From assembly GCA_027490575.1 (NCBI GenBank), contig JAIXXV010000023.1, positions 1 to 39,781 on the forward strand: 39,781 nucleotides of DNA, given 5' to 3'. The notes beneath the pieces are model-generated. The model had not been told where the DNA came from and made no database searches. It saw nothing but the letters and a program-made list of their open reading frames with translations. The stretch is from a bacterium. Its GTDB lineage: Bacteria > Patescibacteriota > Minisyncoccia > Phycocordibacterales > CAIZLB01. Made by a program: the position numbers and the translations under genes. Positions 20,367-21,021 of this stretch are shown here, one piece after another (positions within the stretch are counted from its first letter, which is position 1; each line of letters starts with the position of its first letter).

Positions 20367-20395
20367 TTGACGCATAAACCTATGAATGTTATTAT
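20367..20395 (+). promoter_or_regulatory. Consensus sigma70 promoter of the 20401-20849 unit
   Basis: TTGACG (20367-20372), 17 nt spacer, TATTAT (20390-20395). Confidence 0.75.
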
Positions 20396-20400
20396 TTAGA

Positions 20401-20666
20401 CATCAGAAATCAGTAATGACAGCAAACAAGGTCATTGATAAGGATTGCAAATATGCAACACCTCTCCCGAAAAGGAGTCAATATCAATGACCTTTTGTCA
20501 TTGGTGAGAATCACTCAGGTCCGTCGAGACCTGCTGCGGACGTAGCAAGGGTTACTGCGAAAACGTGCGCAAACAAAATTGACTGTTTTTTGGGAGGGGA
20601 GTTGGCAATGAGCCGACACTTAGCTTAGTCAGCTAAGCGAATAATAAACCCTTCCACCAAAAGCCT
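20401..20666 (+). ncRNA. Candidate structured RNA or long structured 5' leader
   Basis: GGTCATTGATA (20430-20440)/TATCAATGACC (20482-20492) 11-bp stem; competing CAATGAC-CTTTT-GTCATTG; CAGGTC-CGTCGA-GACCTG (20516-20533); GCTGC-GGAC-GTAGC; CTTAGC-TTAGTCA-GCTAAG; mini-ORF with SD GGAGGGGA + ATGAGCCGACACTTAGCTTAG. Confidence 0.6.
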
Positions 20667-20849
20667 ATGTTTAGAGCTATTGGTTTTGTTATCGGTCTCA
20701 TTGCTATCCGAGTGCTAATGCCAGGTGTATTCCATGCACTTGAGCAGGCACTTATCATGTTCTTTAGTTTGATTAGCCATGTGTTTGCATCTGCACCACA
20801 AGATGTCACTCAATTTGGCGCAGTAGGGTACGCCGGATTTTCCTACTAA
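20667..20849 (+). CDS. Small hydrophobic (two-helix) protein, 60 aa
   Basis: MFRAIGFVIGLIAIRVLMPGVFHALEQALIMFFSLISHVFASA...; own upstream promoter and downstream terminator. Confidence 0.6.
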   Translation: MFRAIGFVIGLIAIRVLMPGVFHALEQALIMFFSLISHVFASAPQDVTQFGAVGYAGFSY

Positions 20850-20897: not shown

Positions 20898-20926
20898 ATA
20901 ACCGTCCTCTATGGGCGGTTTTGTTT
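20898..20926 (+). terminator. Terminator of the 20401-20849 unit
   Basis: AACCGTCC-TCTAT-GGGCGGTT followed by TTGTTTT. Confidence 0.75.
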
Positions 20927-21021
20927 TGGCTAATTATTTATTTGTGATCGAAAATGCTTCGAAAAGAAAAGTGTGAGAATTTCAATCATTTACAAATGTG
21001 TGGTATAACACATGTACATAA

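Follow-up and report, generated by a model that had tools for sequence, protein, structure and literature searches.

What is encoded in the roughly 265 nt that precede a small hydrophobic protein gene between dacA (Peptidase_S11) and tgt in a patescibacterial genome of about 0.77 Mb, and does this leader control the gene behind it? We address this question for a window of 39,781 nt, by which we mean the whole stretch of DNA analysed, and give all coordinates for its plus strand, on which every window feature given with coordinates lies. The near-consensus promoter proposed in a first-pass annotation, TTGACG-N17-TATTAT, is present at 20367–20395 with 10/12 consensus matches. Sequences of this grade occur twice in the window against 6.3 expected from shuffles, so that chance could account for the consensus match by itself; a relative (L002) carries TTGACG-N17-TATATT at the equivalent position. 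A transcript start near 20402 is predicted. The leader of about 265 nt is likewise present as described, followed by a 60-aa ORF (20667–20849) with no Shine-Dalgarno (SD) sequence upstream and by an intrinsic-terminator-like hairpin 3' of the gene (20900–20928). The leader (20402–20666) folds with −91.9 kcal/mol compared with −63.4 ± 5.4 kcal/mol for shuffled sequences (z −5.3). At the gathering threshold, Rfam models detected four tRNAs and nothing else in the whole window, and scanning the leader alone at a permissive E ≤ 10 gave only implausible sub-threshold matches. Among 13 relatives, the scan found tRNAs and a tmRNA elsewhere and nothing on the leader, which agrees with the initial impression that the leader does not match tmRNA, RNase P, SRP or common riboswitch motifs.

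All comparisons with relatives are sequence analyses of metagenome-assembled genomes. A DNA-level search of 61 genomes gave matches in five of five same-genus relatives and in no other genome. The leaders of the genus share two conserved blocks, an element E1 behind the promoter and an element E2 ahead of the ORF, and both blocks recur with altered sequence in another genus (g2) of the window's family, found via a protein profile; E2 was present in all six g2 genomes searched. This comparison changes the picture drawn from the window. In general terms, the idea of a new, structured leader whose pairings exclude one another stands, but the hairpins originally named as exclusive are not the conserved ones. 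The proposed alternative pairing of TATCAATGACC with the downstream GTCATTG (20497–20503) exists in the window and looks like chance, since GTCATTG is missing in the relatives. The stems CAGGTC/GACCTG and GCTGC/GTAGC (about 20517–20548) sit in window-only sequence as well. Three other stems of the first-pass annotation proved durable: GGTCATTGATA/TATCAATGACC has an equivalent with altered sequence in the relatives, and both CTTAGC/GCTAAG and GGGAGGGG/CCCTTCC correspond to genuine, conserved helices, namely hairpin B and helix P1 of a three-way junction. Hairpin A of this junction (20601–20617) had been missed, as had the conserved competition of 20461–20468 and 20649–20655 for 20592–20599.

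E2 (20592–20655) is a conserved three-way junction of P1, hairpin A and hairpin B. In the window, P1 consists of GGAGGGG/CCCTTCC (20593–20599 with 20649–20655), followed inwards by hairpin A, GTTGGC-AATGA-GCCGAC, and hairpin B, CTTAGCT-TAGTC-AGCTAAG (20619–20637), which has a conserved NGUC loop. The covariation check on homologues that had been suggested at the outset revealed stems and loops conserved, with covariation. In a 12-sequence alignment, 10 of the 19 E2 pairs show compensatory changes, for example column pair 37–47 of hairpin A (AU in six sequences, GC in five, GU in one), and in a 19-member alignment six of six hairpin A pairs vary on both sides. The covariation score of E2, computed from an alignment of 19 diverse members, was 0.412 versus 0.254 ± 0.022 in shuffles (0/500), and partners slid against each other reached at most 0.297. 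The loops, AAUGA/AUUAG and UNGUC, are conserved too. Of 39 E2 segments whose borders were set by hand, as also for the swap tests and form energies described below, 37 contain GTC in the region of hairpin B, where 14.3 would be expected, and 26 have TTAG or ATGAG in that of hairpin A (expected 4.5). Every one of these 39 segments folds as a three-way junction, a count that depends on the cutting, and the loop motifs are the more independent sign of E2. In single-sequence folds the junction appeared in 42/58 leaders versus 110/348 shuffles. A pseudoknot between the hairpin B loop (UAGUC) and an upstream GACUG was considered and dropped; it fits five genus members and neither g2 nor other families.

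How far E2 extends, and which gene it accompanies, was assessed with two covariance models. The first (R1) was searched against 397 genomes of the order. Beyond the window's family it matched G029 (twice), G058 and G148, each time immediately before the gene of the independently found protein; three matches at E 0.03–0.04 (L113, L114 and L043) lie in unrelated context and were treated as chance. In G029, the small gene is present twice through a tandem duplication (L110:777-1485), and an E2 precedes both copies. Because the R1-based structural alignment was gappy for distant members, a second model (R2) was built from a separate alignment of 19 training sequences, with rough E-values obtained from a short calibration; leaders were collected from 58 loci. 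R2 found a match just before the ATG in 7 of 12 class-level leaders outside the training set (L131, L133, L134 and L138–L141), five at E ≤ 0.002 and two weakly (E 0.09 and 0.5). In 65 whole genomes it produced 30 matches at E ≤ 0.1 (19 sequences had served to train the model), and 29 of the 30 lie directly upstream of the small gene, which indicates that E2 is dedicated to this gene in about one copy per genome, the duplication in G029 being the exception. As far as these alignments and searches reach, E2 is conserved class-wide, with strong covariation. Several leaders of family f41 (L055, L056, L058, L063, L066 and L070) precede shorter proteins of about 50 aa and have an E2-like junction whose P1 differs in sequence and polarity; they are possibly a simpler version of the leader.

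The competition for one strand emerges from the comparison across families. In the window, the purine-rich strand 2, GGGAGGGG (20592–20599), is shared between two partners: it can pair with strand 1, CCTCTCCC (20461–20468), to give helix H1 (form I), or, through 20593–20599, with strand 3, CCCTTCC (20649–20655), to give P1 and thereby E2 (form II). Most families contain such an upstream pyrimidine-rich strand 1 complementary to the 5' strand of P1. In swap tests with 30 family representatives and a 110-nt upstream region, cognate combinations paired better than non-cognate ones both for strand 2 with the upstream region (z −8.4) and for strand 2 with strand 3 (z −3.8), and the control combination of strand 3 with the upstream region gave no signal (z +0.5). 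That strand 2 covaries with both partners is the hallmark of a switch. Single H1 or P1 pairings are weak evidence, because purine- and pyrimidine-rich strands pair easily; the strength lies in the cross-family statistics. The estimated energy difference between the two forms ranges from roughly −15 to +9 kcal/mol and is below 10 kcal/mol in most leaders, with form I usually favoured. Other members illustrate this leader family better than the window does: in the window, H1 has only 8 bp including one G-U pair, and its two strands are separated by an insertion of about 120 nt; strand 1 lies outside the 110-nt region of the swap test and was paired by eye; and E2 is favoured by an estimated 2.3 kcal/mol. 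In f41 no obvious strand 1 was seen by eye, and H1 is therefore not universal.

The position of E2 relative to the start codon is nearly constant. Strand 3 of the window ends 11 nt before the ATG, and the distance from the end of P1 to the ATG has a median of 13 nt, falling between 11 and 18 nt in 28 of 31 non-f1 leaders. With compensatory structure and a constant position before one gene, the leaders have the features of cis-regulatory elements. The familiar route of sequestering an SD sequence does not fit them. An SD-like motif precedes the small gene in only 2 of 71 leaders, and the CCUCC anti-SD core is absent from the seven resolvable 16S tails of the order, which end in GUGGAAUCAUUCAAUUUG or similar (loci L115–L121 of G012, G001, G113, G000, G003, G023 and G309, respectively); together, these two observations make SD-based control unlikely. 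An A at position −6 is common ahead of the start codons of the family (48/71 leaders). One 16S-like sequence (L124, G086:C68) ends in GGATCACCTCCT, unlike the order's other genomes, and is possibly from a contaminant contig. Two readings that involve SD-like sequence were rejected. Strand 2 (GGAGGGG) could be taken for the SD of a mini-ORF (ATGAGCCGACAC..., MSRHLA*), but relatives preserve neither its frame nor its AUG: the reading is contradicted by an MS* product in L006, by the AUUAG loop of many families and by 16S tails without anti-SD. P1 as a built-in imitation of the SD helix fails on the P1 strands of f41, GUGUUCGC/GCGUACAC and GCGCCUC/GAGGUGC, which are unrelated or swapped in composition.

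The 5' element bears on further explanations. E1 (20430–20492) is a long hairpin of GGTCATTGATA (20430–20440) and TATCAATGACC (20482–20492) directly after the promoter, kept in relatives, and carries strand 1 near its tip. Between E1 and E2, four of the six genus members (L002, L004, L005 and L006) have a terminator-like hairpin, computed for L006 and recognised by eye in the others, with a compensatory change between L002 (CTGCTCA/TGAGCAG) and L004 (CTACTCA/TGAGTAG). E1 could be released as a small RNA via this hairpin in the four members. The same hairpins are what speaks for a transcription attenuator, in which the alternative forms would decide whether an intrinsic terminator is made. They are absent in L003, in g2 and in other families, however, and U-tracts follow P1 in only 6 of 39 leaders and strand 2 in only 3 of 39. 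A terminator formed by one of the two alternatives was thus not found, the exception being the separate hairpin of the four genus members, where a transcriptional contribution may exist; attenuation cannot be the general mechanism, and we regard it as the least probable of all readings considered.

The 5' arm of E1 (20430–20440) also contains a boxA-like ATTGATA, which reads CNTTGAMA in relatives. In 37/76 leaders the 5' part contains TTGA[ACT]A against 8.1 expected, a count for a short motif that is partly confounded with the −35 sequence TTGACA, and the boxA-like leader sequences resemble stretches, such as CTTCTTTGACAACT and GTTTTTTGACAACA, that precede 16S in the respective genomes. A boxA within an mRNA leader has a precedent in E. 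coli suhB (PMC5725501). The leader could accordingly be read as a boxA/Nus leader, in which NusB-S10, bound to the boxA-like sequence in the 5' part, would act on translation or termination, with the structures serving only as insulation. Likeness to suhB is confined to a boxA-like sequence at the 5' end of the mRNA leader; regulation of suhB rests on neither a conserved three-way junction nor a three-strand competition, and boxA is assigned here by sequence resemblance alone. The motif is moreover missing from some leaders, and the class-wide conservation of E2 is left unexplained; this explanation appears improbable.

The gene downstream offers few hints of its own. Its product, about 50–80 aa in length with the consensus MxIFRAIGLGLxIIxLxxLMPxVFxAFExTLxxFF, has only weak matches below any cut-off in Pfam, NCBIfam and PHROGs. 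A first profile detected it in 71 of 397 genomes of the order and a broader one in 53 of 297; beyond the order it occurs in 14 members of the class, and beyond the class in a single genome. By these profile searches, the 60-aa protein is the founder of an undescribed class-wide family of membrane-type small proteins. AlphaFold2 predicted two helices (pLDDT 65, pTM 0.28), a model of low confidence and too weak for a fold search. Neighbouring genes, identified by eye from translations, vary and include tgt, dacA, a prfB-like gene and aminoacyl-tRNA synthetases, with tgt and dacA shared in some families. A small hydrophobic ORF behind a heavily structured leader with alternative folds recalls hok and aapA1, and with E1 releasable as a separate RNA in four of six genus members one might think of a type I toxin-antitoxin-like system, i.e. 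a small hydrophobic toxin whose mRNA is silenced by a metastable leader and an antisense or trans RNA. Unlike those systems, the leader described here is spread class-wide over reduced genomes in about one copy each. This distribution, together with the neighbours shared in some families, makes the gene look vertically inherited rather than mobile, and we consider a toxin-antitoxin origin very unlikely.

Altogether, we favour the interpretation, with a probability of roughly 0.6, that the leader is a cis-acting and probably translational switch between two forms, dedicated to one small-protein gene. In form I, strands 1 and 2 would pair and strand 3 beside the start codon would stay single-stranded; in form II, strands 2 and 3 would pair and close E2 with hairpins A and B. 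Form I could arise first during transcription, ahead of E2. Stabilised E2 would place a helix 11–16 nt before the AUG, within the expected 30S footprint, and lower translation, with form I as the presumably permissive form. The simplest reading of the comparative data would be a helix that is shifted into or away from the region of initiation. E2 may serve as the receptor for a trans-acting partner, either the gene product itself or a ribosome- or Nus-linked factor, and it is the likely receptor because it holds the conserved loops.

The nature of this partner is the point at which a metabolite riboswitch has to be weighed, with E2 as the putative aptamer, its loops and junction binding a small molecule, and H1 as the expression platform. 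The combination of a competing helix and a compact three-way junction whose loop nucleotides are conserved is riboswitch-like. The conserved bases lie mainly in the two hairpin loops and not in the junction, however, and the leader serves one gene per genome that is not a recognisable enzyme or transporter gene. We prefer a protein over a metabolite because E2 occurs in about one copy per genome, at the small gene only, and because that gene has no enzyme or transporter signature; a riboswitch proper seems unlikely, if less so than the boxA/Nus explanation. A broader formulation, in which E2 would be the receptor of a class-wide RNA that governs initiation without an SD/anti-SD step, via the helix 11–16 nt before the AUG, with a specific cellular ligand, be it a protein or a metabolite, as the signal, is conceivable and is offered tentatively.

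Among known systems, the preferred two-form switch shares with translational riboswitches and alternative-fold attenuators one strand that takes part in two exclusive helices near the start codon, along with a compact multi-helix domain with conserved loops. It differs from them in having no Rfam match, in serving one small-protein gene and in having no SD to sequester. Similar to the autoregulatory leaders of ribosomal proteins such as S15 and L20 (see also PMC7247131), it is a dedicated leader of one gene per genome with a three-way junction and probably a protein partner, but the gene downstream of E2 is not a recognised ribosomal protein gene.

On the strength of the comparative analysis, we consider these leaders to represent a real and well-supported new family with a conserved strand switch: an undescribed RNA family of class-wide reach, for which the gene partner is defined, a covariance model exists and the base pairs can be put to the test. 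Patescibacteria make up a large part of bacterial diversity. A search of the open-licence literature on Patescibacteria and riboswitches yielded a single paper, in which riboswitches figure only as a possible engineering tool. Since the seven resolvable 16S tails have no anti-SD, the family would provide a natural case for how structured leaders may govern initiation without SD pairing, and the function of the small protein may become approachable through the regulation of its gene.
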